Shown here one piece after another: positions 44,015-63,339 of a DNA stretch of 64,000 bases. The position numbers and the translations under genes are program-made. Every line of letters starts with the position of its first letter. Within the stretch, counting starts at the first letter, position 1. Source of the DNA: Kineococcus mangrovi (GTDB lineage Bacteria; Actinomycetota; Actinomycetes; Actinomycetales; Kineococcaceae). Below the pieces are notes generated by a model. It was not told where the DNA came from. It was given only the letters and a program-made list of their open reading frames with translations, and made no database searches. The stretch is taken from assembly GCF_041320705.1 (NCBI RefSeq), contig NZ_JBGGTQ010000003.1, forward strand, positions 186,001 to 250,000, in the 5' to 3' direction.

Positions 44015-44015
44015 G

Positions 44016-44936: not shown

Positions 44937-44974
44937 GGGGTTCTCCTGTGTCACGGGTCGGTGGGGACGTTCCC

Positions 44975-45016
44975 AGCCTACTTCGTGTCCACGCAGAAGG
45001 ACAGTATCCAAGGATG
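44975..45016 (-). promoter_or_regulatory. Candidate promoter and palindrome upstream of kdgD
   Basis: On the minus strand TAGGCT (44975-44980) is a -10 candidate about 40 bp before the start codon. A perfect 10-bp palindrome ATCCAAGGAT lies at 45007-45016, close to where a regulator would sit above the -35. The regulator is unknown. Confidence 0.4.
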
Positions 45017-45022
45017 TAGACA

Positions 45023-46165
45023 CTAGCGGTGGGCGGCGCGGGCCCAGTCGAGGCCGAGCTCGGTGAAGGTGCGCCGCCGGGTCACCGCCTCGTGGACCGC
45101 CTCCTCCACCCCGGGCAGCTGCCGGTGAACGTCGCCGCCGGGCAGGTCGTGCCGGACCCAGAACTCCCCGGGCACCGCGCGCGGCTCGGGGCCGGAGACG
45201 ACGGCGTCCTGGACGCGGGCGAAACCCCCGGCGTCCTGCAGCGGGGACCGGGGCCGGCGGTCCGTGCGCACGGCGTCGAGCAGGTCGTCGAGCAGGTCCA
45301 CGCGCTCGTGCCGGGTGACCCGCGGCGGCCGTCCCGGGACCTCCTCCACGACCGTGTCGAGCGTGTAGAACAACGTGATCGACCCGCCCGTGCCCGTCAC
45401 GGTGACGGACGGTTCACCGGGCTCGGCCGCGGCGAGCGTGACGGCGACGAGGACGTCGAGCCCGTCGGCGAGCGCGATCCGGGCCGTGGAGGTGTCGTCG
45501 GCCTCGATGTCGTTGACGTGGAACAGGTCCGTCTCGACCGCCCGCACGTCCTCGAGGCGTTGCGACCCGGCGACGGCCAGGACGGTGGCGACGGCGTGCG
45601 CCAGCGGGTTCGTCAGCGCGCCGTCGGCGACGACCCGCCCGTCCAGCCGGCGCCGGCCCGCCCAGGGTGCCCGCGCGTAGTAGGAGTGCGTGCGCACCCA
45701 GCACCCGGCCGCGGCGTACCCCGTCACCGTGCCGATCCGGCCGCCCGCCACCCGGTCGCGGACGTGCTGGACCGCAGCCGACCCCAGGCTCTGGAACCCG
45801 ACCTGGCACCAGCGACCGGTCTCCCCGGCCAGGGCGAGCAGCGCCTCGAAGGAGGGCAGGTCCGCGGTGGCGGGTTTCTCCACGAGCACGTGCGCGCCGG
45901 CCCGCAGGGCGGTCCCGGCGAGGTCGGCGTGCGTGTGCAGCGGGGTGCTCACGACGACGACGTCGGGCTCGTGCGCCGCCAGCAGGTCCGTCAGGTCGCT
46001 GAACCGCTGCACGCCCTCCAGCGCCCCGTCCGGCGGGACGGGGTCGGCGACGGCGACGAGGTCGATCTCGCCGCCCTCGCGCCGGGCGAGCAACCGGTCC
46101 ACGTGCCGCCGGCCGTACCCGTGCACGCCGACGAGGGCGACCGCCGGTCGCGCCGGGCCGCTCAC
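45023..46165 (-). CDS. Gfo/Idh/MocA family oxidoreductase
   Basis: A 380-residue NAD(P)-dependent sugar oxidoreductase. The N-terminal Rossmann domain shows VALVGVHGYGRRHVDRL, VVVVSTPLHTHADLA and the family EKP motif (VLVEKPATADLP). The C-terminal alpha/beta domain includes DGALTNPLAHAVATVLAVAG. The VGVHGYGRRH form of the nucleotide loop is typical of the members found next to PmoA-like genes. GTG overlaps the stop of the PmoA-like gene. The sugar substrate is unknown. Confidence 0.87.
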   Translation of the reverse strand: MSGPARPAVALVGVHGYGRRHVDRLLARREGGEIDLVAVADPVPPDGALEGVQRFSDLTDLLAAHEPDVVVVSTPLHTHADLAGTALRAGAHVLVEKPATADLPSFEALLALAGETGRWCQVGFQSLGSAAVQHVRDRVAGGRIGTVTGYAAAGCWVRTHSYYARAPWAGRRRLDGRVVADGALTNPLAHAVATVLAVAGSQRLEDVRAVETDLFHVNDIEADDTSTARIALADGLDVLVAVTLAAAEPGEPSVTVTGTGGSITLFYTLDTVVEEVPGRPPRVTRHERVDLLDDLLDAVRTDRRPRSPLQDAGGFARVQDAVVSGPEPRAVPGEFWVRHDLPGGDVHRQLPGVEEAVHEAVTRRRTFTELGLDWARAAHR

Positions 46166-47097
46166 GAGCGGACCCCCGTCACGCCCGCGCCGCCCGCCAC
46201 CGTTCCCGTCACCGTTCCCGTCACCGTTCCCATCTCCTGGTCCTCCTCGTGGTCGCGCACCGGTTCCCCCGTTCGTCCCTGCCCAGGGTCCCCGAGGAGC
46301 CCCGCCGCCAGTCCCGCGGCCGCGGCGGCCTCGAGCCGCTCGTCGAGGACCAGCACGTCGACCTCCTCCACGAGCGGGTCCGCCGGGGTGAGGACGAGGC
46401 GCTCGGCCACGGCCAGGGCCGGGCCGAACCCGACGTACCCCTGCGTGCGCACGAACCAGGGCCGGGGCCGGCCCCGCTGCACGGCCAGCAGCGACACCGC
46501 CTCCGGGCCGTCGGAGGTGACCAGCAGCCAGGGCGAGCGGACGCCGTGGGCGTGCTCGACACCGGTGCCCGCCGTCGTCGCCACGACCGCGCCGGGGAAG
46601 GGGGTGCGCCAGAACCAGCCGCCGTAGAAGGCGCCGGGGCGCCCGTTCGTCGCCGACGACCCCACCGACAGCGGGCGGTCGGGCACGAACGCGGTGCGCC
46701 AGGACAGGACCCAGCCCGCGGGGTGCGGGCACGTCCGCAGGCGCCGCGCCTCCACGCCCTGCCGGCGCCCCCGCTCGTCGGTCCACACGATCTCCAGGTC
46801 GACTCCGTCGGGGTGGTCGCGCCGGGCCGTCACCCGCTGCCGGCCGTGGTCGTCTCGCAGGACGGACCCGCGGCCGCGGACGAACGTGCGTCCGCCCCAG
46901 TGGTTCGTCCCGCCGAGGTCGGCCACGGCCACCCCCACCCCGTGGTGGTGGGGGTGGTCGGTCGGTGCGCTGTCGCTGAGGACCACGCCCGCCAGGGAGC
47001 GCACGGGGTGCAGGTGCGGGCGGGGGGACTCGGCCGGGGGCAGGTCGTCGCCGAGGCGGACCTCGACCACGTCCGCCGCCAGGACGGGGCCGGTCAC
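46162..47097 (-). CDS. PmoA-like (DUF6807) family protein
   Basis: A 311-residue protein of the PmoA/DUF6807 family, a beta-rich fold often found beside Gfo/Idh/MocA oxidoreductases in sugar-degradation clusters; despite the family's name no methane oxidation role is implied. Conserved blocks are HPVRSLAGVVLSD, HPHHHGVGVAV with four His, GGTNHWGGRTFV, DHGRQ, and FYGGWFWRTP. The last 35 residues form a repetitive Thr/Val/Gly tail (GTVTGTVTGTV). Both ends overlap neighbours (GTGA), so GH43, this gene and the oxidoreductase are one unit. Confidence 0.83.
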   Translation of the reverse strand: MTGPVLAADVVEVRLGDDLPPAESPRPHLHPVRSLAGVVLSDSAPTDHPHHHGVGVAVADLGGTNHWGGRTFVRGRGSVLRDDHGRQRVTARRDHPDGVDLEIVWTDERGRRQGVEARRLRTCPHPAGWVLSWRTAFVPDRPLSVGSSATNGRPGAFYGGWFWRTPFPGAVVATTAGTGVEHAHGVRSPWLLVTSDGPEAVSLLAVQRGRPRPWFVRTQGYVGFGPALAVAERLVLTPADPLVEEVDVLVLDERLEAAAAAGLAAGLLGDPGQGRTGEPVRDHEEDQEMGTVTGTVTGTVAGGAGVTGVRS

Positions 47098-48719: not shown

Positions 48720-48725
48720 GCCGAA

Positions 48726-48771
48726 ACCCTACCGGAAAGCGTTTACTCGGGTGCCCGCGAGAAACTACGAT
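48726..48771. promoter_or_regulatory. Shared divergent promoter with LacI-type operator
   Basis: The 58-bp gap holds TAGGGT on the minus strand (48726-48731, 6 nt before the GH43 ATG), TACGAT on the plus strand (48766-48771, 6 nt before the pectinesterase ATG), and between them GAAAGCGTTTAC at 48735-48746. This element differs by one base from the reverse complement of 55983-55994, upstream of the third ABC operon. One repressor could close both promoters. Confidence 0.6.
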
Positions 48772-48777
48772 CGCCCG

Positions 48778-50367: not shown

Positions 50368-51142
50368 GCTCCACCGCGGTGAAGGCGGCGAACAGGTTCG
50401 CCGCCAGCAGTCGCTGAGCGGCCGCGGTGAGGTGGGTCGTCCCGTCGTTGACGTGGCCGGCCGGGGACGGTGCGAACGCCGTCCCCGGCACCCGGCCCGG
50501 GGTGGCTGCGTGCGCTGCGGCCACCCCGGCGTGGTTCGGGTACGCGGCGATGCGCTCCGGCGCCATGCCGCCGAGCAGGAACGGGACGTCCTGCGCCGTC
50601 GGGACCTGCGCGCGGAAGGCGGCGACGAGCTCGTCGAGGTCCGCGGCGTACTCGGCCTCGCTGCGACCGTGGCCGCCGTCGGTCTCGCCCTGGTGCCACA
50701 GCACCACCCGCACGCGGGAGTCCGGGCCTGCCGCGGCCAGGGCCGCCCGCACGTGCGCGACGGCGCGCGCGAACAGGTTCGGGGTGTCCGCCCGCTCCAG
50801 GCCCACCTTCCAGACGCCGGGGTAGGACGTGTGGGCGTGGAAGCCCGTCCCGCCCACGGCGGCCGGGACGACGAGGACGCGCCGGTCGGCCGGCAGGGTC
50901 GGCAGCAGCAGCGCGGCGAAGGGGCCGCCGGGTCCGACGCCGCCCGGCGGGTGCCCCAGCAGCGGCCAGAACGGCTCGCGGGCCGGCACTATCCGCCCCC
51001 CGTCCGGTCCGGTCGCGGCGAACACCTCCACCCGCGGGTCGAACGCGTCGGCCCCCTCGGGGTCGAAGTCCGTGTTGGACCCGGCGGCGTTGGACTGCCC
51101 GAGGACGACGACGAGGTCGCGACCCGCCCGTTCCCCGTTCAC
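50330..51142 (-). CDS. Carbohydrate esterase, SASA/DUF303 (sialate O-acetylesterase-like) SGNH hydrolase
   Basis: A 270-residue SGNH-type esterase. Block I DLVVVLGQSNAAGSN has the nucleophile Ser, block III is VVLWHQGETDGG, and block V DGTTHLTAAAQRLL provides Asp/His. The family removes acetyl groups from xylan, pectin or sialic acids. No signal peptide. The GTG overlaps the stop of the Gfo/Idh/MocA gene (GTGA), and the gene ends the ABC system 3 operon. Its 3' end overlaps the convergent pectinesterase gene by 38 bp. Confidence 0.83.
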   Translation of the reverse strand: MNGERAGRDLVVVLGQSNAAGSNTDFDPEGADAFDPRVEVFAATGPDGGRIVPAREPFWPLLGHPPGGVGPGGPFAALLLPTLPADRRVLVVPAAVGGTGFHAHTSYPGVWKVGLERADTPNLFARAVAHVRAALAAAGPDSRVRVVLWHQGETDGGHGRSEAEYAADLDELVAAFRAQVPTAQDVPFLLGGMAPERIAAYPNHAGVAAAHAATPGRVPGTAFAPSPAGHVNDGTTHLTAAAQRLLAANLFAAFTAVELTAAGPGPAARH

Positions 51143-52557
51143 GTCCCCGTTCGCGCCATGACCGCCCCGGCGTCCAGGGGCAGCCCGAAGTCGGCCAGCC
51201 GGACTGCCTGTCCGCTCGCCAGGGAGGCGTTGCCGCTCACTCCGACCAGGACGCTGCGGACCCCGTCGAGGTACCCGGCCTGCCGGCCCAGCGGGTCCGG
51301 GGCCGCACCGCGCAGGACGTCGTCGAGGAGCATCGCGTCCCCGCCGCCGTGCGCGCCGGCCCCCTCGGGGATGGGCAGGAGCTGCGGCGGCTGCCAGTGC
51401 TCCTGCAGCAGGAGGCGGGACCCCCACGGCCGCAGGGACTGCGCGGCCACCTCGGGGTCGTCGGGCTGGGCGCTCGGGTCGACGGCCGGCGCCGACTTGC
51501 CGGGCGTCGCGCCGGCGGCGACGGCCGCGGCCGCGACGTGGGAGCGTTCCACGACCTCCAGCTCGACGCGGCCCCGGGTCCCGTTGACGGCGACCCGGTA
51601 CCCCTCCCACGGGGAGTGGGCGTTGAGCGTGTACGCCATGGACGCGCCGCGGGAGTAGCCGACCGCCAGGGTCAGGTTGTCCTCGATGGTGATGCCCCCG
51701 GTGAACACGTCGCGGTCGCGGTGGTACCCGTCGACGGCTTCGCCCTCCAGGAACAGCCGGCGCATCTTCTCATCGGCGGCGAGGTCCAGGACGAACGGGT
51801 CGCCGTGGCCCACGGCGTCCCGGCCGAGCAGCGGGCGCGGCCCCAGCCCGCGGCGCGCGGCGTTGGCCTCGCCGTAGAACCGCAGCCCGCCGAGGGCGAA
51901 GACGGTCTCGGGGGCGTCGTCCAGCCACCAGTTCACGAGGTCGAAGTGGTGGGTGGACTTGTGCACCAGCAGCCCGCCGGAGTTGGCCTTGTCCCGGTGC
52001 CAGCGGCGGAAGTAGTCGGCGCCGTGGACGGTGTCCAGGCACCACTCGAAGTGCACCGACGTGACGTCCCCGACCCGCCCGTCGGCGATGACCTGCCGCA
52101 GGAGGGTGTTGCGGGGGGAGTACCGGTAGTTGAACGTCACGACGAGCCGGCCCGTCGAGGTGCGCGCCGCCTCCACGATGTGGAGCAGCGACTGCGCGTC
52201 GATCGTCAGGGGTTTCTCGCACACGACGTCGACCCCGGCGCGCAGCGCGGCGACGACGTACCGGGCGTGGGTGTGGTCCGGGCTGGTGACGAGGACGACA
52301 TCCGGGCGCTCGGTGCGCAGCAGGTCGTCGAACGCCTCGGGCCGGTACCGGTGCGGGGCGCGCCGCCCCCGCTCGAGGAGGAACTGCTCGTAGTAGTCCA
52401 TCCGGACGTCGTTGCCGTCGACGAGGGCGACGACCTCCCCGACGTCGGTGTGGGTGGAGGACAGGGCCTCCAGGTACATCTGGGACCGTCCCCCGGTGCC
52501 GACGACGGCGTAGCGCCGCCGTCCCGTCGAGGGGGTCGTCACTCGTGCCTCGTCCAT
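51139..52557 (-). CDS. Gfo/Idh/MocA family oxidoreductase (long form)
   Basis: A 472-residue NAD(P)-dependent oxidoreductase, about 100 residues longer than usual. The Rossmann loop is YAVVGTGGRSQMYLEAL, followed by VVLVTSPDHTHARYV and VCEKPLTID. The C-terminal region has SGGLLVHKSTHHFDLVNWWLDD with the catalytic Lys/His. This long subgroup is common in actinobacterial and planctomycete sugar clusters. It follows the permease genes by 59 bp and is coupled to the SASA esterase gene. The substrate is unknown. Confidence 0.87.
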   Translation of the reverse strand: MDEARVTTPSTGRRRYAVVGTGGRSQMYLEALSSTHTDVGEVVALVDGNDVRMDYYEQFLLERGRRAPHRYRPEAFDDLLRTERPDVVLVTSPDHTHARYVVAALRAGVDVVCEKPLTIDAQSLLHIVEAARTSTGRLVVTFNYRYSPRNTLLRQVIADGRVGDVTSVHFEWCLDTVHGADYFRRWHRDKANSGGLLVHKSTHHFDLVNWWLDDAPETVFALGGLRFYGEANAARRGLGPRPLLGRDAVGHGDPFVLDLAADEKMRRLFLEGEAVDGYHRDRDVFTGGITIEDNLTLAVGYSRGASMAYTLNAHSPWEGYRVAVNGTRGRVELEVVERSHVAAAAVAAGATPGKSAPAVDPSAQPDDPEVAAQSLRPWGSRLLLQEHWQPPQLLPIPEGAGAHGGGDAMLLDDVLRGAAPDPLGRQAGYLDGVRSVLVGVSGNASLASGQAVRLADFGLPLDAGAVMARTGT

Positions 52558-52616: not shown

Positions 52617-53528
52617 TCACTTCATCCCCGTGGTGGCGATGCCGTTGAGGAGATAGCGCTGCCCGATGAAGAAGAACGCCACGACGGGCAGGAGCGAGAC
52701 GACCGACATCGCGAACATCGGGCCCCAGTCGCTGGCGCCCTCGGCCGACATGAACTGCCGCAGCGCCAGGGGCACGGTGAACAGGTCCGAGTCGGTGAGG
52801 TAGAGCAGCGGCCCGAAGAAGTCGTTCCAGCTGGAGATGAAGGTGAAGATCGCCACGGTCGCCATCGCGGGGACGGTGAGCGGCATGATCACCTTCCAGT
52901 AGGTCCGGTAGGGCCCGCAGCCGTCGATCTTGGCGGCGTCCTGCAGCTCCATGGGCAGTGCGCGCATGAACTGCACGAGCAGGAAGACGAAGAACGCGTT
53001 GGTGGCCAGGAACGCCGGGACCGTCAGCGGCAAGTAGGTGTTGACCCAGCCCAGCTTGGCGAAGATGACGTACTGCGGGATGAGGACGACGTGGGCCGGC
53101 AGCAGCATCGTGCCGAGCATGGCCGCGAACAGCGTCTTGCGGCCGCGGAAGCGGAGCCGGGAGAACGCGTAGGCCGCCATCGAGCACGACAGCAGGTTCC
53201 CGACGATGTTCAGCACGGCCAGGATGAGCGAGTTCACCAGGTAGAGCTGGAACGGGTGCTCCAGCGCCGACCAGCCGGCCGCGTAGTTGCCGAGCTCGAC
53301 CTGCGAGGGGACGAGGTTGCTGTCGGCGAACACCTTGGCGCTCGGCTTGAACGACGCCGACAGCATCCACAGGAGCGGGTAGAGCATGACCAGCCCCACC
53401 CCGACGAGGACGACGTGGCGCAGGAAGCGCGTGCGGGGCGTCCCGCTCAGCTCCTCCTGGTAGGCCTCGACACCACGCAGGCGGTCCTTGGCCGAGCGGA
53501 GTCCGCGGGTCAGGGTCGTGTCAGTCAT
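52617..53528 (-). CDS. ABC sugar permease (MalG type, system 3)
   Basis: A 303-residue permease with six membrane segments and EAA loop DAAKIDGCGPYRTYWKVIMP (first residue Asp). The ATG overlaps the end of the partner permease gene by 8 bp. Part of the third CUT1 importer, again without an ATPase gene. Confidence 0.93.
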   Translation of the reverse strand: MTDTTLTRGLRSAKDRLRGVEAYQEELSGTPRTRFLRHVVLVGVGLVMLYPLLWMLSASFKPSAKVFADSNLVPSQVELGNYAAGWSALEHPFQLYLVNSLILAVLNIVGNLLSCSMAAYAFSRLRFRGRKTLFAAMLGTMLLPAHVVLIPQYVIFAKLGWVNTYLPLTVPAFLATNAFFVFLLVQFMRALPMELQDAAKIDGCGPYRTYWKVIMPLTVPAMATVAIFTFISSWNDFFGPLLYLTDSDLFTVPLALRQFMSAEGASDWGPMFAMSVVSLLPVVAFFFIGQRYLLNGIATTGMK

Positions 53529-54468
53529 CGTAGAACACCCACCACTTGGAGACGAGGAAGTTGAGCGCGGTGAAGAAGGCGATGACGATGAACATCACCC
53601 ACGCGAGCGCGGAGGCGTAGCCCATGTCGAACCGCTGGAACCCCTGCTGGTACAGGTAGAGGTTGAAGAACAGGGTGGACTCCGCCGGGCCGCCGGTGCC
53701 GCCGGAGAAGACGAACCCCTGGGTGAACGTCTGCAGGGATCCGATGAGCCCGAGCACGAGGTTGAAGAAGATCACCGGGCTCAGCAGGGGGACGGTGATG
53801 GAGCGGAATTGCCGCCACCAGCCGGCGCCGTCGACGGAGGCGGCCTCGTAGAACATGACGGGGATCTGCCGCAGCCCGGCGAGGAAGATCACCATCGAGG
53901 CGCCGAAGCTCCAGACGCCGAGGGTGACGAGGGTGACGAGGGCCCAGTCGGGGTCGGTCACCCAGCCCGGGCCCTCGATGCCGAAGAAGCCCAGGAAGGA
54001 GTTGACGATCCCGCCGTAGCCGAAGATCGAGCGCCACAGCATGACGATGGCGACGCTGGCCCCGATGAGGGAGGGCAGGTAGAAGATCGATCGGTAGAAC
54101 TTGAGCCCGCGCACGCCCTTGTTGAGGAGCATGGCCACCGCCAACGCCGACACCATCGAGATGGGCACGGACAGGAAGGTGTAGGTGAGCGTGACGCGGG
54201 CCGACGTCTCCGCCTTCGGGTCCTCGAAGACGCGGGTGAAGTTCTCCAGCCCGACGAGCGCGGGGGACTGCAGGAGGTTGTAGTTCGTGAAGGCCAGGTA
54301 CAGCGAGACCCCGAACGGGATGACCGTGAACAGCATCCCGATGAACCAGGGCGCGAGGAACACGTAAGCGGCCCGTTCCTCCGACGCCTCGGCCGAGCTG
54401 CGCCGCCGCAGGCGTGGCGGCCTGTCCACCCCGGGGGCGGCCACCGGGGACGTGGTGCTGGTGCTCAT
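53521..54468 (-). CDS. ABC sugar permease (MalF type, system 3)
   Basis: A 315-residue permease with six hydrophobic segments and EAA loop EAASVDGAGWWRQFRSITVP. The ATG at 54468 has AGGAGGAA just upstream and is preferred over an in-frame upstream start that would add a proline-rich stretch. It sits between the binding-protein gene and the second permease. Confidence 0.93.
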   Translation of the reverse strand: MSTSTTSPVAAPGVDRPPRLRRRSSAEASEERAAYVFLAPWFIGMLFTVIPFGVSLYLAFTNYNLLQSPALVGLENFTRVFEDPKAETSARVTLTYTFLSVPISMVSALAVAMLLNKGVRGLKFYRSIFYLPSLIGASVAIVMLWRSIFGYGGIVNSFLGFFGIEGPGWVTDPDWALVTLVTLGVWSFGASMVIFLAGLRQIPVMFYEAASVDGAGWWRQFRSITVPLLSPVIFFNLVLGLIGSLQTFTQGFVFSGGTGGPAESTLFFNLYLYQQGFQRFDMGYASALAWVMFIVIAFFTALNFLVSKWWVFYDD

Positions 54469-54514
54469 GGTTCCTCCTGCTGCTTCCTCGGTCGGGGGGC
54501 CGGCGGCACCGGCA

Positions 54515-55828
54515 TCAGGACGACGCGCGGGCGAGGCTGGCCTGGGCTTCGGTGACGAACCGCTCACCGGCCTGCTGCGGGGTCATGCGGCCGAACTCGA
54601 CCTCCGTGGCGAGGCTCACGAGGTTGTCGGAGATCTCCCCGGCCCCGGCGGGCTCGAGGTAGTAGGGGGGCAGCTCCTCGTCCTGCAGGCCGAGGAGGAA
54701 GTCGACGAAGGTCTTGCCGTCGGCCGGCAGCGTCGCCGCCACCTCGGTGGCGATGTCGGGGTTGACCGGGACGCCGAGCAGCGCCGCCCGCGACTCGAAG
54801 GACGTCGGGTCGTTGGTCAGGTAGTCGATGAGGGCGGCGGCCTCCTGCGGGTGCTTCGACCCGCTGGCCTGCGACCACAGCAGCGTGGGCGTGATCTGGT
54901 ACCCGTGGGTGGGAACCTCGCCGGGGAAGCGGACGAGGGTCAGGTTCCCGTCCAGCGCGGTGTTGTAGTCGCCGAAGAGGTTGGCGGGGATCGTCTGGGA
55001 CGCGACGAACCCCTTGCCCAGGGCGGAGTCCTCCACGGTGGTGGCCTGGTCGTCCAGGCTGCCCGCGGGGGCGTACCCGCCGGCGTCGCGGAGGTCGACG
55101 GTCATCTGGAAGTAGTCCGCCAGCGTCTGCGCGGACATCCCGAGAGTTCCGTCCTCGGTGTACAGGCTCTCCCCGTGCTGACCGGCCCACAGGGACACGG
55201 TCGGGGCCCAGGGGATGTTGTAGCCCGTGCCGTACGTCGCCCGGCCGGTGGCCTCGGTGATGGCCACGTTGAAGTCGTGGAACTGCTGCCACGTCCAGGT
55301 GCTCGTGTCCGGCAGGGTCAGTCCCACGTCCTGCAGGACCTTCGTGTTGTAGACCAGGCCCTGGCAGGTGGTGCCGGTGGGCACGCCGTAGAGCTTGCCG
55401 TCGAGGCGGCTGGAGGCCAGGACGCTGTCGTCCAGCGCGGTGAGGTCGAGGGCGTCGGGGAAGGTCGCGAGGTCGGCCAGGGCGCCGCGGGAGGCGTACT
55501 CCCCGAGCCAGCGCCCCACGAGGAACATGACGTCCGGCGGGTTGCCCGCGGCGAAGCGGGTGTTGAGCTTGTCCTGGTAGCTCCCGACGTCCATCCACTC
55601 CAGCTTCACGGTGACGCCCGGGTTGGCCTCGTGGTAGGCGGCGAAGGCCTTCTCGTAGACCGCCGCCTGCTTGGAGTCGGCCCATGCCATGACGGTCAGC
55701 TCCACGCCGTCCGCGTCCGTCCCGCCGCCGGAGGCGCCGAAGCGGCTGCAGCCGGTGAGGGCGACGGCGGAGGCGGTCGCCACGCCGGTGGCCAGGGTGG
55801 TGCGACGACTGAGGGGGCGAGCGGACAC
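54515..55828 (-). CDS. ABC sugar-binding lipoprotein (system 3)
   Basis: A 437-residue CUT1 solute-binding protein. The N-terminus has a twin-arginine-like SRRTTLATG, a hydrophobic core and a lipobox LTGC at about residue 27. The mature domain has VMAWADSKQAAVYEKAFAAY, NTRFAAGNPPDVMFLVG and QGLVYNTKVLQDVG. The GTG has GAGGAGA 6 nt upstream. First gene of the minus-strand operon with two permeases, an oxidoreductase and an esterase; a pectin-derived or uronate oligosaccharide ligand is inferred. Confidence 0.9.
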   Translation of the reverse strand: MSARPLSRRTTLATGVATASAVALTGCSRFGASGGGTDADGVELTVMAWADSKQAAVYEKAFAAYHEANPGVTVKLEWMDVGSYQDKLNTRFAAGNPPDVMFLVGRWLGEYASRGALADLATFPDALDLTALDDSVLASSRLDGKLYGVPTGTTCQGLVYNTKVLQDVGLTLPDTSTWTWQQFHDFNVAITEATGRATYGTGYNIPWAPTVSLWAGQHGESLYTEDGTLGMSAQTLADYFQMTVDLRDAGGYAPAGSLDDQATTVEDSALGKGFVASQTIPANLFGDYNTALDGNLTLVRFPGEVPTHGYQITPTLLWSQASGSKHPQEAAALIDYLTNDPTSFESRAALLGVPVNPDIATEVAATLPADGKTFVDFLLGLQDEELPPYYLEPAGAGEISDNLVSLATEVEFGRMTPQQAGERFVTEAQASLARASS

Positions 55829-56225
55829 GGGGGTCTCCTCGGGTGTGGGCGCCTGCGGCGCGGGTCCTGTCCGGACGATCTGTGAGCGGTGCGGGAGCGG
55901 GTGGTGCGAGGACGGGTGGTCCTCCTCGACCCCCCGTGGCGCGGTGGTCGGCGACCCTCCTCGGTCGCCGTGAGCAGGTACGGTAATCGCTTTCTCGCTC
56001 CCGGTCCAGGGGTGGGGTCGCGAGCCGGTCGCGGCGCCTCCCTCGTCCACCCGGATCAAAAAAACTCTTGCAGCCCAACAAGATGTGGATGCAGACCGTG
56101 CTGCCCTTCCCCGGCGGGCGTTGTGTGGGTACCGTCTGGGGAACCGGTTTCTTGGTGGAGCGGGCGACGCGGCCGTCGCCCCCGCCGGGGAGGATGGCCG
56201 GGAGACCTCGGAGGTGGTTCGGGCG
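55829..56225. promoter_or_regulatory. 397-bp divergent regulatory region of the pectin/uronate genes
   Basis: No gene is seen here. On the minus side TACCGT (55980-55985) overlaps the LacI-type site GTAATCGCTTTC (55983-55994). On the plus side TACCGT (56130-56135) is followed by the perfect palindrome AACCGGTT (56142-56149) at the expected transcription start. Between them is an unusual A-rich patch (seven As at 56058-56064 region) and an inverted repeat TCTTG/CAAGA around 56066-56083. Confidence 0.55.
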
Positions 56226-58211
56226 ATGACGACCGGTGCGGCGCGGCTGGCCCGGCACGACGGGAGCATCCGCTGGGTGTCGGTCCCGGGGGCGGGCCAT
56301 CCGGTCGCCTACCTGCACGGCCTGGGGTGCAGCTCGCTCGCCAGCTGGGCCGGCACCGCCGCGCGGCTGGGCCGCCCGGGCGTCCTCGTCGACCTCGTCG
56401 GGCACGGCCGCTCGGACCGGCCGGCCTCCTTCGACCACTCCCTCCCCGAGCACGCCGACGCGGTGGCGGTGGCCCTGACCGCGAGCGGCCGGGCCCCCGT
56501 GGACCTGATCGCCCACAGCCTCGGCGGGTCGGTGGCGGTCGTGCTGGCCGACCGCCACCCCCACCTCCTGCGCTCGCTGGTGCTCGTCGAGCCCGGTCTG
56601 GACCCGGTGGCGGTCGGCCCGGACCACGTCGCCGCGACGGACGAGGCCGAGCTGGCGCACGGCGGGTGGGAGCGGCTGCTGGCCCGGGAGGACCCCGAGC
56701 GGCGCGCCGAGGTCCGCACCACCGACCCGCTGGCCTTCGTGCGCGGGGCCCGGACGGTCTGCGACGCGCTCGGGGGTTCTCTCAACGACCTCCTGTCCCG
56801 GACCCGGACCCCGACCCTGCTGATCGCCGGCCACCGGACCTACGCGCAGTGGGACGTGCTGCAGGAAAACGGGATCCGCTGCGAACGGATCGCGGGCGGA
56901 GGTCACTTCGTGATGCTCGAGCAGCCAGCGCGGTTCCACCGGCTCGTCGAGGACTTCACCGCTCGCGCGCACCCCGCCCCGCCGTCGCCGCCCAGCACCT
57001 CCGGTCGCCTCGGCGCCTTCGACGGGCTGCACGACGTCGTGGCCCGGTCCTGGCCCCTGTTCGGCGCCGACGCCCCGGACCCGGAGACCGTCCGGGGCCG
57101 ACTGCGCGCCGCGCTCGGGGTCCCGCTGCGCCCCACCGTCGCCGAGGCCGGTCTCGTCGTCCACGAGCGGTGGACCCGCGACGGCCTGGACGGCGCCGAG
57201 GTCAGCTGGGAAGCGGGCTTCGGCCCGCGGGTGCGCGGGCGGGTCCTGCGCCCGGCGGGGCAGGCCGGCCCGCTGCCGGGGGCGCTGTTCCTGCACTGCC
57301 ACGGCGGGGTGAAGTCCGTCGGGCTGGACAAGCTCGCCGACGGGGCGGACGGTCGACCCGCGCACCCCCGTGTCGCCGGGATCCGCGACGGCCTCTACGG
57401 CGGTGTCGCGTCGGCGGAGGACCTGGCCCGCCGCGGCGTCCACGTCCTCGTCCACGACGGGTTCGGCTGGGGCAGCCGGCGGACCCCGCTGTCCGCTCTG
57501 CCCGCGCGCAGCGAGGCCCAGGCCGGCCACGAGCTGGCCGTGCGCACCGCCCGGGGCGAACGGCTCGACGAGGCCGCCGTCTACGACCTGCACGCCGGCC
57601 CCGCCGAGGACGCGGTGGCCAAGGCGCTGGGGGTCCTCGGCACCTCCTGGGCCGGGATGCTCGCCCGCGAGGACCTGCTGGCCCTGGACCTGCTGACCGC
57701 CGACCCCGGCGTCGCCCCCGGCGGGGTGGGCGTGCTCGGGTTGTCCGGCGGGGGGGCCCGCGCGGCGATCACCGCGGCGCTCGCACAGGACGAGCCGCAC
57801 CTGGCCGGTGCCGTCGGTGCGGTCGTCGTGGCCGCCATGGTCTCCACCCTCCGCGAGGCGCTGCCTGAGCACCTGCACTGCCACACCTGGGCCCTCATGA
57901 CGCCCGGGCTGGGGCGCGTCGCCGACTGGCCGCAGGTCGTCGCCGCGAGCGCCCCGACCCCCCTGCTGGTGCAGTTCGCCGCGCAGGACGCGCTGTTCCC
58001 CGCGGCGGGCATGAACCGGGCCCGCGGCGTCCTCGCCGACGCCTACGCGGACGCCGGTGCCCCCGACCGCTTCCTCGGCACCGTGCACGACGTGCCGCAC
58101 AGCTTCGGCCGAACCCAGCAGGGCGAGGCCTTCGACTGGCTCGCCCGGCACCTGCCGGCGGGCCGCCCCACCGACCAGCCCGACGCCCCACCCCTTGGAG
58201 GACACCCGTGA
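56226..58211 (+). CDS. Tandem alpha/beta hydrolase (two esterase domains)
   Basis: A 661-residue protein with two alpha/beta hydrolase domains. Domain 1 (about 1-245) has the HGLG oxyanion motif, nucleophile elbow AHSLGGS, and the His in GGGHFVML. Domain 2 (about 260-655) resembles acetyl-xylan or dipeptidyl-peptidase-like esterases: FLHCHGGVKSVG, VLVHDGFGWGSRR, nucleophile elbow LGLSGGGARA, Asp in FAAQDALFP and His in DVPHSFGR. Both triads look complete. The ATG at 56226 is chosen because it lies after the TACCGT/AACCGGTT promoter element. First gene of a five-gene plus-strand operon. Confidence 0.82.
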   Translation: MTTGAARLARHDGSIRWVSVPGAGHPVAYLHGLGCSSLASWAGTAARLGRPGVLVDLVGHGRSDRPASFDHSLPEHADAVAVALTASGRAPVDLIAHSLGGSVAVVLADRHPHLLRSLVLVEPGLDPVAVGPDHVAATDEAELAHGGWERLLAREDPERRAEVRTTDPLAFVRGARTVCDALGGSLNDLLSRTRTPTLLIAGHRTYAQWDVLQENGIRCERIAGGGHFVMLEQPARFHRLVEDFTARAHPAPPSPPSTSGRLGAFDGLHDVVARSWPLFGADAPDPETVRGRLRAALGVPLRPTVAEAGLVVHERWTRDGLDGAEVSWEAGFGPRVRGRVLRPAGQAGPLPGALFLHCHGGVKSVGLDKLADGADGRPAHPRVAGIRDGLYGGVASAEDLARRGVHVLVHDGFGWGSRRTPLSALPARSEAQAGHELAVRTARGERLDEAAVYDLHAGPAEDAVAKALGVLGTSWAGMLAREDLLALDLLTADPGVAPGGVGVLGLSGGGARAAITAALAQDEPHLAGAVGAVVVAAMVSTLREALPEHLHCHTWALMTPGLGRVADWPQVVAASAPTPLLVQFAAQDALFPAAGMNRARGVLADAYADAGAPDRFLGTVHDVPHSFGRTQQGEAFDWLARHLPAGRPTDQPDAPPLGGHP

Positions 58212-59143
58212 AGGTTCTCGTCACCGGCGGCGCCGGCCGGCTCGGCCGCAGCGTCGCCACGGTGCTGCACCGGGCCGGTCACCACGCCGTCAGCGTCGAC
58301 CGGTTCGACCACCCCGACCCCGCCGTGGAGGACGTGCGCCTCGACCTGCTCGACGAGGACGCCGTCGTCGACGCGTTCGCGCGGCTGCAGCCCGACGCGG
58401 CCGTCCACCTCGCCGCGATCGCCGTCCCCTTCAGCGCCCCGGAACTGCAGATCCTCACGACCAACACCCGGCTCGCGCAGGTCGTCGTCGACGCCGCCCT
58501 GCGCGCCGGGGCCCGCAAGGTGCTGGCCGCCGGCAGCCCGACCGTCCTCGGCTACGGCGCCCCCGGCGGCTGGACGCCGCAGTACCTGCCGCTGGACGAG
58601 GAGCACCCCACGGCCCCCTGGAACGCGTACGCCCTGTCCAAGAGCGTCGTCGAGGGCGTCGTGGCGATGCACGCGCGGACCGCGACCGACGCGGTGCTCG
58701 GCAGCTTCCGCCCGTGCTTCGTCGTCAGCCCCGAGGAGTGGGCGGGAGCCCCCACCCAGCAGGGCCACACGATCGCCGAGCGGCTGCGGGACCCGGCGCT
58801 GGCCGCGGTGTCGCTGTTCAACTACGTCGACGCCCGCGACGCGGGGGAGTTCGTCCTGCGCTGGCTGGACGTGGCCGACGCCTCGGTGTCCGGGGAGTGC
58901 TTCTTCGTGGGCGCCGCGGACGCGCTCGCCGTCCTGCCGACCGCGCAGGCCGTCGCGCAGGCGCTGCCGTCCGCCGCGGGCGCCGCCGAGAACCTCCCCG
59001 GGACCGCAGCCGCGTTCTCCTGCGCCAAGGCCGAGCGGCTGCTCGGCTGGCGACCGCGGCGCGGCTGGCGCACCGAGCTGCAGGACGCCCCCGACCTCGT
59101 CCCAGCGCCCGCCCCGACCCTGGCCGGGGGTGAGCGCTCGTGA
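58208..59143 (+). CDS. NAD(P)-dependent epimerase/dehydratase (extended SDR), possible uronate dehydrogenase
   Basis: A 311-residue extended short-chain dehydrogenase. The cofactor loop is VLVTGGAGRLGRSVA, the acidic binding residue is in DVRLDLLD, the NNAG-like segment is HLAAIAVP, and the catalytic pair is YALSK (with Ser in AAGSPTVLG). In this operon, beside a sugar-acid dehydratase and with kdgD nearby, a uronate or sugar dehydrogenase role is attractive, but the sequence fits a general epimerase family equally. GGAGG lies before the GTG, which overlaps the preceding stop. Confidence 0.8.
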   Translation: MKVLVTGGAGRLGRSVATVLHRAGHHAVSVDRFDHPDPAVEDVRLDLLDEDAVVDAFARLQPDAAVHLAAIAVPFSAPELQILTTNTRLAQVVVDAALRAGARKVLAAGSPTVLGYGAPGGWTPQYLPLDEEHPTAPWNAYALSKSVVEGVVAMHARTATDAVLGSFRPCFVVSPEEWAGAPTQQGHTIAERLRDPALAAVSLFNYVDARDAGEFVLRWLDVADASVSGECFFVGAADALAVLPTAQAVAQALPSAAGAAENLPGTAAAFSCAKAERLLGWRPRRGWRTELQDAPDLVPAPAPTLAGGERS

Positions 59144-60252
59144 CCACCGTCGTCGAGCGGCCCGGCGCGGCCGGCGGCGCCACCGCGCCCGTCGTCACCG
59201 ACCTGCGCGTGGAGCACCTCACGGTCCCCCTGCGCCGCCCCTGGGGCCCGGACGTCACCGTCGTGCACGTCCTGGCCACCCACGTCGAGACCTCCGACGG
59301 GGCCACCGGCGCGGGGTTCACCTGGACGCCCACGATCGGGGCGCACGCCGTGGAGGCGCTGCTCGCCCACGACGTCCGCGCCTTCGCGCTGGGCCGCCCC
59401 GCCACCACCGGCTGGTGGGAGCAGGCCTGGGAGCACCTGCACGAGGCCGGTGGCGGCGGGGTCACCACGATCGCCCTGGCCGGTCTCGACCTGGCGCTGT
59501 GGGACCTCGCGGCCCGGCGGGCCGACGCCTCGCTCACCGACCTGCTGGGCCGGCGGCACCAGCACCAGCCCACCTACGGCAGCGGCGTCAACCTGCACTA
59601 CACCGACGCCGAGCTCGCCGACCAGGTGCGTCGCTGGGTCGACGTCGGCCACGCCGGGGTCAAGGTCAAGGTCGGGCGCCCCGACCTCGCCGACGACCTG
59701 CGCCGCGTGGCGATCGTGCGCGACCTCATCGGCCCCGACCGAGCCCTCATGGTGGACGCCAACCAGCGGTGGGACCTGCCGCGGGCGACCACCGCCGTGC
59801 AGGCCCTGGCCGAGTTCGGACCGGCCTGGGTGGAGGAACCCCTGCGCGCCGACGACACCTCCGGCCTGGTGGAGCTGCGCCGCCGCACCGGAGCCCGGCT
59901 GGCCATGGGGGAGAACGTCCACACCTGGTACCGGTTCCGCGACCTCATCGAGGCCGGCGCCGCGGACGTGCTGCAGCCCAACGTCGTCCGGGTCGGCGGC
60001 ATCACCCCGTTCCTGAGGATCGCCGCGCTCGTGCGCGACGCCGGCCTGGAACTGGCGCCCCACCTGCTGCCGGAGCTGTCCGGGCAGCTGGCCCTCGCCC
60101 TGCCCGGGCGCACGTGGGTGGAGGACGTCGAGGACGCGGGGTTCGCCGACCTCGGCGTCCTGCGGGTCCCCACCGGCGGGACGTGCTCGGGCGGGTCCTT
60201 CCGCGGCGGTCTGCGCCCCGGCCTGGGGTTCGACTTCCGGACCGCGACGTGA
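59140..60252 (+). CDS. Enolase-superfamily (mandelate racemase type) sugar-acid dehydratase or cycloisomerase
   Basis: A 370-residue mandelate racemase/muconate-lactonising enzyme homologue. The base motif KVKVGRPD lies near residue 175, the three metal ligands are Asp in LMVDANQRWD, Glu in WVEEPLRAD and Glu in MGENVHTW, and a catalytic His is in LAPHLLPE. It likely acts on an acid sugar such as galactarate, glucarate or galactarolactone, producing a 5-keto-4-deoxy acid. The step is inferred from neighbours kdgD and the SDR gene. GTG overlaps the SDR stop. Confidence 0.83.
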   Translation: MTTVVERPGAAGGATAPVVTDLRVEHLTVPLRRPWGPDVTVVHVLATHVETSDGATGAGFTWTPTIGAHAVEALLAHDVRAFALGRPATTGWWEQAWEHLHEAGGGGVTTIALAGLDLALWDLAARRADASLTDLLGRRHQHQPTYGSGVNLHYTDAELADQVRRWVDVGHAGVKVKVGRPDLADDLRRVAIVRDLIGPDRALMVDANQRWDLPRATTAVQALAEFGPAWVEEPLRADDTSGLVELRRRTGARLAMGENVHTWYRFRDLIEAGAADVLQPNVVRVGGITPFLRIAALVRDAGLELAPHLLPELSGQLALALPGRTWVEDVEDAGFADLGVLRVPTGGTCSGGSFRGGLRPGLGFDFRTAT

Positions 60253-61316
60253 GCCCCGCCCCGGTCCCTCCGCACGGCGCCGACCGTCCCGAGAAGCGCC
60301 GCCGGCTGCGCGAGCTGCTCGACCGCGCCGGGCACGAGCGCGTCCTGCTGACCACCGGCCCCACCCTGGCGTGGTACCTCGACGGCGCCCGCGTGGACGT
60401 CGGGGCCGGCGCGGCACCGGTCCTGGCCGTCGTTGCCGACGGTCGCGGCGACGTCGTGCACTGCGCCGTCAACGAGGTCGACCGGCTCCTCGCCGAGGAG
60501 CTGCCCGACGACGTGGACGTCCGCCCGGTGCCCTGGGCCGTCCCCCCGGCGCTCGCGGCGGCGCGGGACCTGCCCCGCGAGGACGACCTCGCGCTCGAGC
60601 TGCGCGCCGCCCGCGCTGGGCTGCTGCCGGGCGAGCGCGTCCGGTACGCCGACCTCGGCCGCGCCTGCGCGGAGGTCCTCACCCGGGCGCTGCACGAGGC
60701 CGAGCCCGCGCAGAGCGAACGCGCCCTCGCCGGGCGGGTCGGCGGTCTGCTGCTCGCCGAGGGGATCGACCCGCTCGTCGTGCTCGTCGCCGGGCAGGAC
60801 CGCGTCCTGCTGCGCCACCCCGTGCCGGGGCCCGGCCCTCTGGGGCGGCGCGCGATGGTCGTGGTCTGCGGACGCCGGCACGGCCTGGTCGCCAACCTCA
60901 CCCGGTGGGTGGCCTTCGACGACCCCGACCCGGCCACCGCCGAGGCCACCCGAGCCGTCCTCGAGGTCGAGGCCGACGCCCTCGCCGCCTGCCGGCCGAG
61001 CCGAACCTTGGCCGAGGTGCTCGAGGACGTCGCCCGTGCCTACCCCCGGCACGGCTTCGACGCGCAGGAGTGGACCCGGCACCACCAGGGGGGTCCGACC
61101 GGGTACGCCGGGCGCGACCCCCGCGCCACCCCGGACGCCGTCGACACCGTGGTCCCCGGTCAGGCCTTCGCCTGGAACCCCACGGCGCCGGGCGTCAAGG
61201 TGGAGGACACCCTCGTCCTGGCCCCCGGCGCCGACCCGCAGGTGCTGACCTGCGACCCGGCGTGGCCGACCGTCACCGTGCGGGGCCTGGCGCGCCCGGC
61301 GGAGCTGCGGCGGTGA
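60249..61316 (+). CDS. M24-like (creatinase/aminopeptidase fold) protein lacking usual metal ligands
   Basis: A 355-residue protein with creatinase N-domain features (LRELLDRAGHERVLLTTGPTLAWYLDGARVDVG) and an M24 pita-bread C-domain with TRHHQGGPTGYAGRDPR and AWNPTAPGVKVEDT. In metallopeptidases the strand after the active-site helix holds two Asp ligands; here it reads MVVVCGRRHGLVANLTRWV with no Asp. So it is probably not a metal-dependent peptidase. Possibly a creatinase-like or non-catalytic relative. Coupled to the dehydratase gene. Confidence 0.72.
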   Translation: MSPAPVPPHGADRPEKRRRLRELLDRAGHERVLLTTGPTLAWYLDGARVDVGAGAAPVLAVVADGRGDVVHCAVNEVDRLLAEELPDDVDVRPVPWAVPPALAAARDLPREDDLALELRAARAGLLPGERVRYADLGRACAEVLTRALHEAEPAQSERALAGRVGGLLLAEGIDPLVVLVAGQDRVLLRHPVPGPGPLGRRAMVVVCGRRHGLVANLTRWVAFDDPDPATAEATRAVLEVEADALAACRPSRTLAEVLEDVARAYPRHGFDAQEWTRHHQGGPTGYAGRDPRATPDAVDTVVPGQAFAWNPTAPGVKVEDTLVLAPGADPQVLTCDPAWPTVTVRGLARPAELRR

Positions 61317-61365
61317 CCCGGGACCGCCGCGGGCCCGGCGCCCGGACGGTCCGCCCGACGGCACT

Positions 61366-61371
61366 TACCAT
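61366..61371 (+). promoter_or_regulatory. Candidate -10 box (TACCAT) of the LacI-DUF6807 gene
   Basis: TACCAT ends 6 nt before the GTG at 61378. A short inverted repeat GGCAC (61360-61364) / GTGCC (61378-61382) surrounds it, and could allow autoregulation. Confidence 0.45.
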
Positions 61372-61377
61372 CTTGTC

Positions 61378-63339
61378 GTGCCACGGGTGACACGGCGGTC
61401 CGCGGCGGCCGGGGCGACCATCAGCGAGGTGGCGGCCGCCGCCGGCGTCTCGCAGGCCACCGTCTCGCGCGTCATGAACGGGCGCGTCACCGTCGCCCCG
61501 GACATCGCCGACCGGGTGCGCGCGGCCGCGCTGGCCCTGCGCTACCGGCCCAGCACCTCGGCCCGCAGCCTGTCGCTGGGGCGCACCGGGACCGTCGCCC
61601 TCGTCGTCCCCGACCTGGCCAACCCCGTCTTCCAGCGCGTCATGCGCGGGGCCGTCGACGCCGCCGAGGCGGCCGACCACCGGGTCCTGGTCGCCGAGAC
61701 GGCGGGCCGCACGAGGCGCGAGCTCGACATCGTCCGCGAGGCCCGGTCCCGGTGCGACGCCCTCGTCCTGGTGTCCCCGACCGTGTCGGACGCCCAGCTG
61801 CACCAGGTGTTGGGGGAGATGGCACCCGCCGTCCTCGTCAACCGGGTGCTGCCCGGATCACCGGCCCCTTCCGTCGTCGTCGACCACGGCCACGGTTTGA
61901 ACGCGCTCGTCGAGCACCTCGCCGGCCTGGGGCACCGGCACCTCGTGCACCTCGCGGGACCGGAGACTGCGGCCGCGACCCCCGAACGCGCCCGGACGCT
62001 GCAGGAAGCCGCCCGACGCTGGGACGGCCTGCGGGTGACGACGCTGCCGGCGGGTACCGGGCTCGACGACGGGTACGCGGTCGCCGACCAGGTGCTGGAG
62101 ACGGGGGCGACGGCCGTCGTGGCGTTCAACGACCTCGTGGCTTTCGGCGTCCTGGCCCGGCTCAACGAGACCGGGGTCGCGGTGCCCGTCGACCTGTCCG
62201 TGGCGGGGTTCGACGGCATCGAGCTGGCGCGCTTCGCGACGCCGCCGCTGACCACCGCCAGCGTCGACCAGGCCGACCTCGGCCGGCGGGCGATGCGGCG
62301 GCTGCTGGACCTGGTGGCCGGTCGCGAGGACGTCGTCTACAGCGTCGACGTCCTCGTCCCGAGCCTGCTGGTGCGCGCCAGCACCGGCCCGGTGCCCCCG
62401 GCCCGCCGCGAGATGCGGGCGGTCCCGTCCGGGGCTGCCGCGTCGGCCCCGGACGACCCGGCGCGCTGGGTCCTGGAGGGGTCCGGCGCGCACCTGCGGG
62501 CCGCGGGCACGGTGCTGGCCCGGCTCGCCGACGGCTCGACGACGCCCAAGGTCCACAGCCCTCGGCCGTTCGTGCACCCCGTGCACTCCCTGGCCGGGGT
62601 CCCGGTGAGCGCGGCCGGCTCGGTCGTCCACCGCCACCAGAACGGTCTCTCGCTCGCCCTGCCCGACGTGGACGGCACCAACCACTGGGGCGGTCGGACG
62701 TACGTCGCCGACCGGGGGCCGGTGCTGCTCATGGACCACGGCCGGCAGGAGATCGCCGATCTGCGGCTCGGGGAGGACGCGACCCACCCCGGCGCGCGCC
62801 TGGAGACGGACGTCCGGTGGATCGACCGGGACGGAGAGCTGCAGCTGCGCGAGGACCGGTCGCTGACCGCGCGGGTCCTGCCCGAGGAGCAGGCATGGCT
62901 GCTGGACTGGCGCAGCCGGCTGGTGCCGCGGCGGGACCTGACGCTCACGAGCCCTGTGGCGCGGGGACGGGTCGGCGCCGGGTTCGGCGGGATCCACTGG
63001 CGGCTGGCCCACGCCGACGAGACCCTGCTGTTCACGGCGCAGGCCGAGGGGGAGGCGGCCGTCATGGGGTCCCGGACCCCGTGGCTGGCCTTCGCCCGTC
63101 GCCACGGCCGGTCGTGGTCCAGCGTGCTGCTCGCCCAGGACCCCGGCGGCCCGCTCGTCCCGTGGTTCGCCCGGGTGGTCGACTACGTCGGTGCCGGCCC
63201 CGCCCTCGCGTGGGACGCGCCGGTCGTCCTGCCTGCCGACGCGCCCTTCGACGTGACCCTGCTGACGGTCGTGGTGGACCGGTGCCTCACGCCCTCCTCC
63301 GCCGAGGACCTCCTCCGGCTGGCCCGCGGCTCGGCGTAG
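61378..63339 (+). CDS. LacI family regulator fused to a PmoA-like (DUF6807) domain
   Basis: A 653-residue protein in three parts. Residues 1-60 are a LacI helix-turn-helix (TISEVAAAAGVSQATVSRVMNG and hinge). Residues 65-335 are a periplasmic-binding-protein-like effector domain (VALVVPDLANPVFQRVMRG, AVVAFNDLVAFGVL, DLSVAGFDGIELARF). From about residue 360 it continues into a PmoA/DUF6807 domain with HPVHSLAGVPVS, GTNHWGGRTYV (from residue 433) and DHGRQEI. The four-His cluster of stand-alone members is degraded (HRHQNG). Typical LacI proteins end near residue 340. It probably senses a sugar or aldarate and controls the pectin genes. Confidence 0.87.
   Translation: MPRVTRRSAAAGATISEVAAAAGVSQATVSRVMNGRVTVAPDIADRVRAAALALRYRPSTSARSLSLGRTGTVALVVPDLANPVFQRVMRGAVDAAEAADHRVLVAETAGRTRRELDIVREARSRCDALVLVSPTVSDAQLHQVLGEMAPAVLVNRVLPGSPAPSVVVDHGHGLNALVEHLAGLGHRHLVHLAGPETAAATPERARTLQEAARRWDGLRVTTLPAGTGLDDGYAVADQVLETGATAVVAFNDLVAFGVLARLNETGVAVPVDLSVAGFDGIELARFATPPLTTASVDQADLGRRAMRRLLDLVAGREDVVYSVDVLVPSLLVRASTGPVPPARREMRAVPSGAAASAPDDPARWVLEGSGAHLRAAGTVLARLADGSTTPKVHSPRPFVHPVHSLAGVPVSAAGSVVHRHQNGLSLALPDVDGTNHWGGRTYVADRGPVLLMDHGRQEIADLRLGEDATHPGARLETDVRWIDRDGELQLREDRSLTARVLPEEQAWLLDWRSRLVPRRDLTLTSPVARGRVGAGFGGIHWRLAHADETLLFTAQAEGEAAVMGSRTPWLAFARRHGRSWSSVLLAQDPGGPLVPWFARVVDYVGAGPALAWDAPVVLPADAPFDVTLLTVVVDRCLTPSSAEDLLRLARGSA

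Follow-up and report, generated by a model that had tools for sequence, protein, structure and literature searches.

In the textbook view, repressors of the LacI family sense sugars through a single ligand-binding core. In a 64,000-nucleotide stretch of Kineococcus mangrovi DNA (the window), one such repressor is joined to a complete domain of the DUF6807 family (Pfam PF14100), which to our knowledge has no known function. The locus raises the question of what a repressor does with this second domain: whether it senses a further ligand, works as an enzyme, holds the protein together, or is there by accident.

The fusion gene, its protein and its relatives

The gene and the parts of its product are as follows.

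61378..63339, + strand: LacI-DUF6807 fusion gene, 653 aa (single open frame, Pfam, AlphaFold2 model)
61417..61554, + strand: LacI helix-turn-helix, residues 14–59 (PF00356, E 2.5e-12)
61588..62385, + strand: LacI-type sugar-binding core, residues 71–336 (Pfam and alignment to E. coli LacI)
62398..62466, + strand: linker, residues 341–363 (low model confidence at 347–356; fast evolving)
62467..63336, + strand: DUF6807 domain, residues 364–653 (Pfam match 373–645; galactose-mutarotase-like supersandwich in the model)
62626..62646, + strand: motif VHRHQNG, residues 417–423 (commonest family forms DHx[WH]HxG; D417 and H421 lost)

A preliminary description of this DNA took 61378–63339 as one gene in which about 290 residues beyond the usual end of a LacI protein form a full DUF6807 domain. 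Both points stand. The frame is open over 653 codons without a stop or frame change, with candidate starts at GTG 61378 or GTG 61387, and a second genome of the genus holds the same fusion (LacI part 80% and DUF part 68% identical) with matching neighbor genes, which argues against a frameshift or mis-assembly near 62400. The N-terminal LacI helix-turn-helix is present at 46.8 bits against a cut-off of 27, Peripla_BP_3 (PF13377) matches residues 178–336 (E 8e-30, 104.5 bits), and PF14100 matches over positions 4–268 of its 270 (E 4e-52, 177.9 bits, cut-off 27). A profile search of the whole genome returned just two PF14100 matches, the fused domain and a stand-alone copy. The sugar-binding anchors R204, N251, D252, and D279 are identical in all 96 distinct fused proteins considered below; they align with R197, N246, D247, and D274 of E. 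coli LacI, residues that bind inducer.

AlphaFold2 modeled the whole protein (50-sequence alignment) with a mean pLDDT of 91.4 and a pTM of 0.70, loose at residues 1–6 and 347–356, and the DUF part alone (likewise 50 sequences) with a mean pLDDT of 96.2 and a pTM of 0.92. This confident model of the C-terminal part, a check proposed in the preliminary description, appears compatible with its DUF6807 reading. The top Foldseek matches of the DUF part were galactose-mutarotase-like supersandwich domains, namely those of GH36 alpha-galactosidases (best E 6e-5, with seven matches at E ≤0.001 and query TM of about 0.4–0.5) and of a galactose-mutarotase-related protein (E 2.8e-3, TM 0.46). The list also contains YidC periplasmic domains, and its scores, weak overall, hint at a carbohydrate-handling fold. 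A search of solved structures by sequence gave no credible match to the DUF part (best E 0.017).

PmoA is a membrane subunit in methane oxidation. Identity of the fused domain with this methane monooxygenase subunit can be set aside given the predicted beta-sandwich and the context of LacI and sugar genes. One metatranscriptome study employs PF14100 as a marker of methane monooxygenase PmoA (PMC10291797), and another article notes an operon in which PF14100 accompanies new beta-galactosidases (PMC5342196). The predicted fold and the neighboring genes argue against PF14100 as a PmoA marker.

Divergence from the ortholog of the same genus (NG86) amounts to dN 0.126 and dS 0.416 in the LacI part, dN 0.254 and dS 0.644 in the DUF part, and dN 0.579 and dS 0.712 in the 23 codons of the linker. 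From these values, the DUF part of the window protein is under constraint, unlike the linker. That the gene is a chance fusion, a mis-assembly or in decay has a negligible probability: nothing was found in its favor, and against it stand a dN/dS of about 0.3–0.4 in both domains, the confident model, and the recurrence of the fusion, with synteny in the second genome of the genus and across the loci that follow.

In a sample of 297 genomes from the order, counting that of the window, PF14100 occurs in 76 and the LacI-DUF6807 fusion in 39; for the second figure every PF14100 match in a frame of at least 600 aa was inspected, and matches in shorter frames counted as unfused. A scan of genome contigs with the fused DUF domains, which kept the best 80 loci by likeness and is not a census, gave LacI helix-turn-helix, intact, and DUF6807 in one frame at 75 of the 80; these belong to 21 actinomycete genera (69 loci in Micrococcales, 5 in Propionibacteriales, 1 in Pseudonocardiales). 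Both counts rule out a unique fusion and give no support to rarity of the three-part protein, of which the preliminary description knew no described example. The fusion is common among actinomycetes, though we found no description of a LacI-DUF6807 protein in the open-licence PMC articles searched. Elsewhere among the best 80, the fusion is cut by the contig end in L067, its parts lie in overlapping frames in L070, and DUF6807 has no LacI beside it in L124 and L129; in a Cellulomonas MAG (L122:6888–10894) LacI and DUF6807 are separate adjacent frames on one strand. A phylum-wide sample had PF14100 in 21 of 396 genomes, and outside the order none of the 15 domains placed in our tree (from 23 matches, 16 of them fetched) shared a frame with LacI. 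Plasmid records held nothing covering 80% of the fused protein, and four held relatives of the stand-alone copy.

The partner dehydrogenase and the state of the fused domain

Evidence on the role of DUF6807 comes from a pair of genes elsewhere in the window.

45023..46165, − strand: Gfo/Idh/MocA partner dehydrogenase (413 bits to an HMM of the genes behind the fusion in relatives)
46162..47097, − strand: stand-alone, "paired" DUF6807 copy (HPHHHG; Pfam E 2.6e-42; 4-base overlap with the dehydrogenase gene)

The assignment of this stand-alone gene to DUF6807 in the preliminary description was correct. The other Gfo/Idh/MocA gene of the window (51139–52542) reaches 64 bits against the same HMM. 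We collected 117 fused genes, of which 96 are distinct after 21 near-copies were dropped. The partner dehydrogenase lies directly downstream in 56 of the 96, in 33 by a 4-base overlap, according to our own gene calls, which miss some genes (L080 is counted without a dehydrogenase though its closest relatives have one).

A tree of 134 DUF6807 domains, built by a quick method from 51 of the 95 LacI-fused domains with short and identical domains dropped, has one branch (SH-aLRT 94, marginally below the value that the program marks with a star) that unites all 51 LacI-fused domains with 26 dehydrogenase-adjacent, 15 dehydrogenase-fused, and 6 other domains. A second branch holds 34 other stand-alone rows, and two rows fall outside both. 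This composition suggests that DUF6807 of the first branch and the dehydrogenase belong together, and that the LacI protein carries that branch's domain. Within the branch the LacI-fused rows do not form one clade, with five label changes, at least three of them on starred branches; a single origin of the fusion, repeated origin, and splitting are all possible on the domain tree. In Sanguibacter inulinus (L068:8900–13141), LacI-DUF6807, a second DUF6807, and the partner dehydrogenase stand in a row, possibly an intermediate arrangement.

Residues were compared across 146 distinct domains (86 LacI-fused, 8 dehydrogenase-fused, 52 other). The unfused domains keep D417 in 50 of 51, H418 and H421 each in 51 of 51, and R531 in 50 of 50. 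The window fusion has D417V, H421Q, and Y536F and keeps H418 and R531. It is nonetheless a family member by its profile match; the set of D417, H418, H421, and R531 is a criterion of our own and not of Pfam. The preliminary description held that the His cluster of the stand-alone copy had been replaced in the fusion. The difference between HPHHHG and HRHQNG (418–423) is real, but H418, H420, and G423 remain, and the family is variable at positions 419 and 422, leaving H421 and the adjacent D417 as the family-wide residues lost. Judging by their conservation, D417 and H421 may be catalytic, and the window copy has probably lost any enzyme activity.

Most relatives differ from the window. All four residues are intact in 79 of the 96 distinct fused proteins, and none is changed in any of the 56 with the dehydrogenase downstream, of which 53 are intact at all 19 family-wide positions and three have H400 changed. 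In the other 40, which lack it there, all 19 positions are intact in 17, W569 alone differs in six, and at least one of D417, H418, H421, and R531 is lost in 17, with D417 or H421 affected in 14 of these. Each of R396, H400, E492, R494, R542, R599, and D634 is nevertheless kept in all 17 degraded copies, which, together with the constraint on the window's DUF part, indicates that the bulk of the conserved residues persists even where the motif is incomplete. These patterns bear on the idea that the fused domain binds nothing specific and is only a structural or oligomerization module in place of the LacI tetramerization helix. Its C-terminal position, where LacI ends, and the loss of two motif residues in some lineages would suit such a role; the retention of all 19 positions in most dehydrogenase-linked copies and of seven charged or His residues in every degraded copy tells against it, and we regard it as improbable.

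The genomes show where degradation occurs. In the 39 fusion genomes, the partner dehydrogenase (E limit 1e-25; in several genomes searched among the first 50 candidates) has exactly one match in 37 and none in two. The fused gene adjoins the dehydrogenase in 18 genomes, none with a degraded fused copy. A stand-alone DUF6807 adjoins it in 15, of which 13, the window's among them, hold a degraded fused copy; G161 and G262 are exceptions with an intact fused copy only, and in G275 a degraded fused copy coexists with an intact one. In four genomes the dehydrogenase lies elsewhere, and the fused copy keeps D417, H418, H421, and R531 and has W569F. The two genomes without a match, G102 and G208, have no PF14100 match other than the fused copy, which carries H418R and R531G, a state consistent with a domain that persists without serving as an enzyme. 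Applied to the raw counts, with relatedness ignored, Fisher tests gave p 3e-8 (17/40 vs 0/56) and p 2e-7 (13/15 vs 0/18), values that are not taken as evidence of independent loss events. On the tree of the fused proteins (a quick tree with long branches flagged) there are just two changes of the loss label, and the independent-pairs test lacks the power to reach significance. The losses thus appear to represent only two or three evolutionary events, three by our reading of the kind of substitution.

A different explanation is that the protein is both regulator and enzyme, in the window as elsewhere, with a catalytic fused domain whose substrate turnover or occupancy sets DNA binding. The intact motif in every fused gene followed by the dehydrogenase speaks for it, as do the 15 DUF6807 domains fused to that same dehydrogenase and the 18 dehydrogenase-linked genomes with one partner match each at E 1e-25 or better. 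Five of these 18 have no unfused PF14100 copy, and in 12 others the further copy falls in the separate DUF6807 branch, so that no other member of the fused domain's branch was found in these genomes, G044 with an additional one (L189) excepted; G282 has a further copy without a place in the tree. The window copy, however, has lost two residues that unfused domains keep almost without exception, and the window has a paired stand-alone copy. The dual role is likely for the dehydrogenase-linked relatives and less so for the window, where we consider it unlikely though still a serious competitor. The suggestion in the preliminary description that the fused domain became a sensor or second ligand module is reasonable for the window lineage, with its two changed pocket-motif residues. 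For the family as a whole it does not carry over simply, because 79 of 96 intact copies and 56 of 96 downstream dehydrogenases point to a family that may be regulator plus enzyme. More speculatively, and with rather less than even confidence, we envisage that in many actinomycetes the LacI repressor, carrying the sole DUF6807 of that branch, is itself a pathway enzyme made together with the dehydrogenase as partner, and that where a stand-alone copy has the pairing, the tail became a catalytically dead sensor two or three separate times with its pocket kept. On this view the window would show one end state of a conversion from enzyme to sensor in a one-component regulator that reads two ligands.

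The pectin island and a predicted operator

The surroundings of the fusion suggest which pathway it would serve.

42455–52542: pectin/galacturonate island (aldehyde dehydrogenase, DHDPS-family gene, the dehydrogenase-DUF6807 pair, GH43, pectinesterase-GDSL, SASA esterase, second Gfo/Idh/MocA)
52617..55828, − strand: ABC-type sugar importer, two permeases and a solute-binding protein, divergent from the fusion operon
55980..55997: second LacI-type palindrome GGTAATCGCTTTC (same intergenic region as the predicted operator; the same-genus relative has a similar site; may belong to another regulator)
56137..56154: predicted operator TGGGGAACCGGTTTCTTG (25.0 bits, best in the window; between the divergent starts 55828 and 56226)
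56226..61316, + strand: alpha/beta hydrolase, epimerase-family, MR_MLE enolase-family, and M24-like genes, upstream of the fusion

The last of these genes and the fusion are separated by 61 bases on the same strand. We take the island genes to fit oxidative galacturonate breakdown, and the preliminary picture of a three-part LacI-DUF6807 regulator in a pectin or uronate island agrees with the predicted domains and the island genes. Two gene structures may be recorded here: 48709–50367 encodes a single protein that combines a pectinesterase domain with a GDSL lipase/esterase domain, and 56226–58211 is a 661-aa gene with an N-terminal alpha/beta hydrolase that in the same-genus relative L154 is called as two (237 and 404 aa).

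When up to seven genes around the fusion were surveyed in 77 loci (the 75, L153, and the window), a homolog of each ABC permease was found in 65 loci and the solute-binding protein in 49. The window importer is homologous to the importer divergent from the fusion in many relatives. One Gfo/Idh/MocA gene occurs in 48, directly downstream on the same strand in 47. Recurrent neighbors, in clusters named from one representative, include galactarate/altronate dehydratase (24 loci), GH43 (20), GH28 (10), rhamnogalacturonan lyase 11 (9), pectinesterase/pectate lyase (7), and pectate lyase (7). These recurrent clusters suggest pectin use by the fused loci.

A palindromic motif search over 95 upstream regions yielded ATGgGaAACCGGTTtCcCAT, with the palindrome centered on AACCGGTT. 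A score of at least 14 bits is reached by 46 of the 55 regions that have the dehydrogenase downstream and by 8 of the 40 that lack it, these being the training regions. The 83 loci scanned, 1.62 Mb in all, contain 180 sites of at least 15 bits, 177 with a gene start within 350 bases, compared with three sites in reversed sequence. Most of the 180 precede the ABC permease (117) and the fusion (98, for the greater part training regions), and others precede GH43 (33), the second Gfo/Idh/MocA (9), pectinesterase/lyase (7), and pectate lyase (4). The AACCGGTT site, one of two that the preliminary description had singled out, thereby gains support as the predicted operator of the family.

In the window, the site at 56137, which is outside the training set, scores 25.0 bits against 13.9 for the highest of 20 simulated windows. 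It lies 5.2 kb upstream of the fusion at the head of the presumed operon; within 300 bases upstream of the gene no site of at least 10 bits was found in 31 of the 40 fused genes without the dehydrogenase downstream, the window's included. A second window site of 15.9 bits, at 63381, lies inside an acyl-CoA dehydrogenase gene. The divergent region of the same-genus relative has a weaker best site, AACCGCTT at 14.5 bits, as well as the other palindrome, AAAGCGATTAC, and the operator assignment within the genus is tentative for that reason. At position 26 of the helix-turn-helix the window protein has Q, and 74 of the 86 fused proteins in the alignment have R, which, with the sites of the relative, suggests that the window operator could differ; GAAAGCGWTTAC is another candidate in this genus. 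Palindromes of the GTAA(W)CGCTTTC type lie at 55980–55997 (before the importer) and 48732–48749 (near the divergent GH43 and pectinesterase starts), and may belong to another LacI regulator.

A proposed mechanism and its place among known systems

We hypothesize, with belief and doubt about evenly balanced, that the window protein is a LacI repressor of the pectin island in which an enzyme-derived, degraded DUF6807 domain serves as a second sensor. The repressor would bind the AACCGGTT-centered palindrome in the divergent promoter region (55829–56225), and binding there would control the ABC importer (52617–55828) and its own operon (56226–63339). The LacI core, with its sugar-binding anchors kept, would provide one candidate ligand site. 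The fused DUF6807 would descend from a domain working with the Gfo/Idh/MocA dehydrogenase, a job held in the window lineage by the stand-alone copy (46162–47097) beside that enzyme, and would act as a second effector site, binding without turnover either the substrate or the product of the pathway and passing its signal between domains. A second effector site seems the most likely role because two family-wide residues are lost while the domain stays under selection.

The fused family is widespread, and its enzyme-family domain, intact beside the partner dehydrogenase and mostly degraded where that role falls to another copy, provides a natural series in which to study how enzymes turn into sensors. 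Tying DUF6807 to one dehydrogenase and to pectin use means that its reaction can be sought, and a predicted operator is now available for the pectin islands of Cellulomonas-type bacteria. The new elements here are the dehydrogenase link of the branch, the pattern of residue loss, and the shared upstream palindrome.

The window protein resembles LacI/GalR repressors such as E. coli LacI, CcpA, and RbsR in having helix-turn-helix, hinge, and sugar-binding core in the usual order, in its 32% identity to aligned E. coli LacI, and in a predicted CG-centered palindromic operator. Those repressors end in a short C-terminal tail, and E. coli LacI has its tetramerization helix where the window protein has a complete DUF6807 of about 290 residues. 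With DUF6807/PF14100 proteins, called "PmoA" in some annotations, the window domain shares a near full-length profile match and, with the copies that pair with the Gfo/Idh/MocA dehydrogenase, a branch; it differs in being joined to a DNA-binding protein and in lacking D417 and H421. Gfo/Idh/MocA-DUF6807 fusions (15 domains) belong to the same large DUF6807 branch and involve the same dehydrogenase subfamily as in the window, which suggests that both domains act in one pathway, but there DUF6807 is joined to the dehydrogenase and in the window to a repressor. The trigger enzymes PutA, BirA, and NadR combine enzyme and DNA-binding parts in one polypeptide with a pathway metabolite in control; in the window, by comparison, it is a LacI repressor with its own sugar-binding core that gained the domain.
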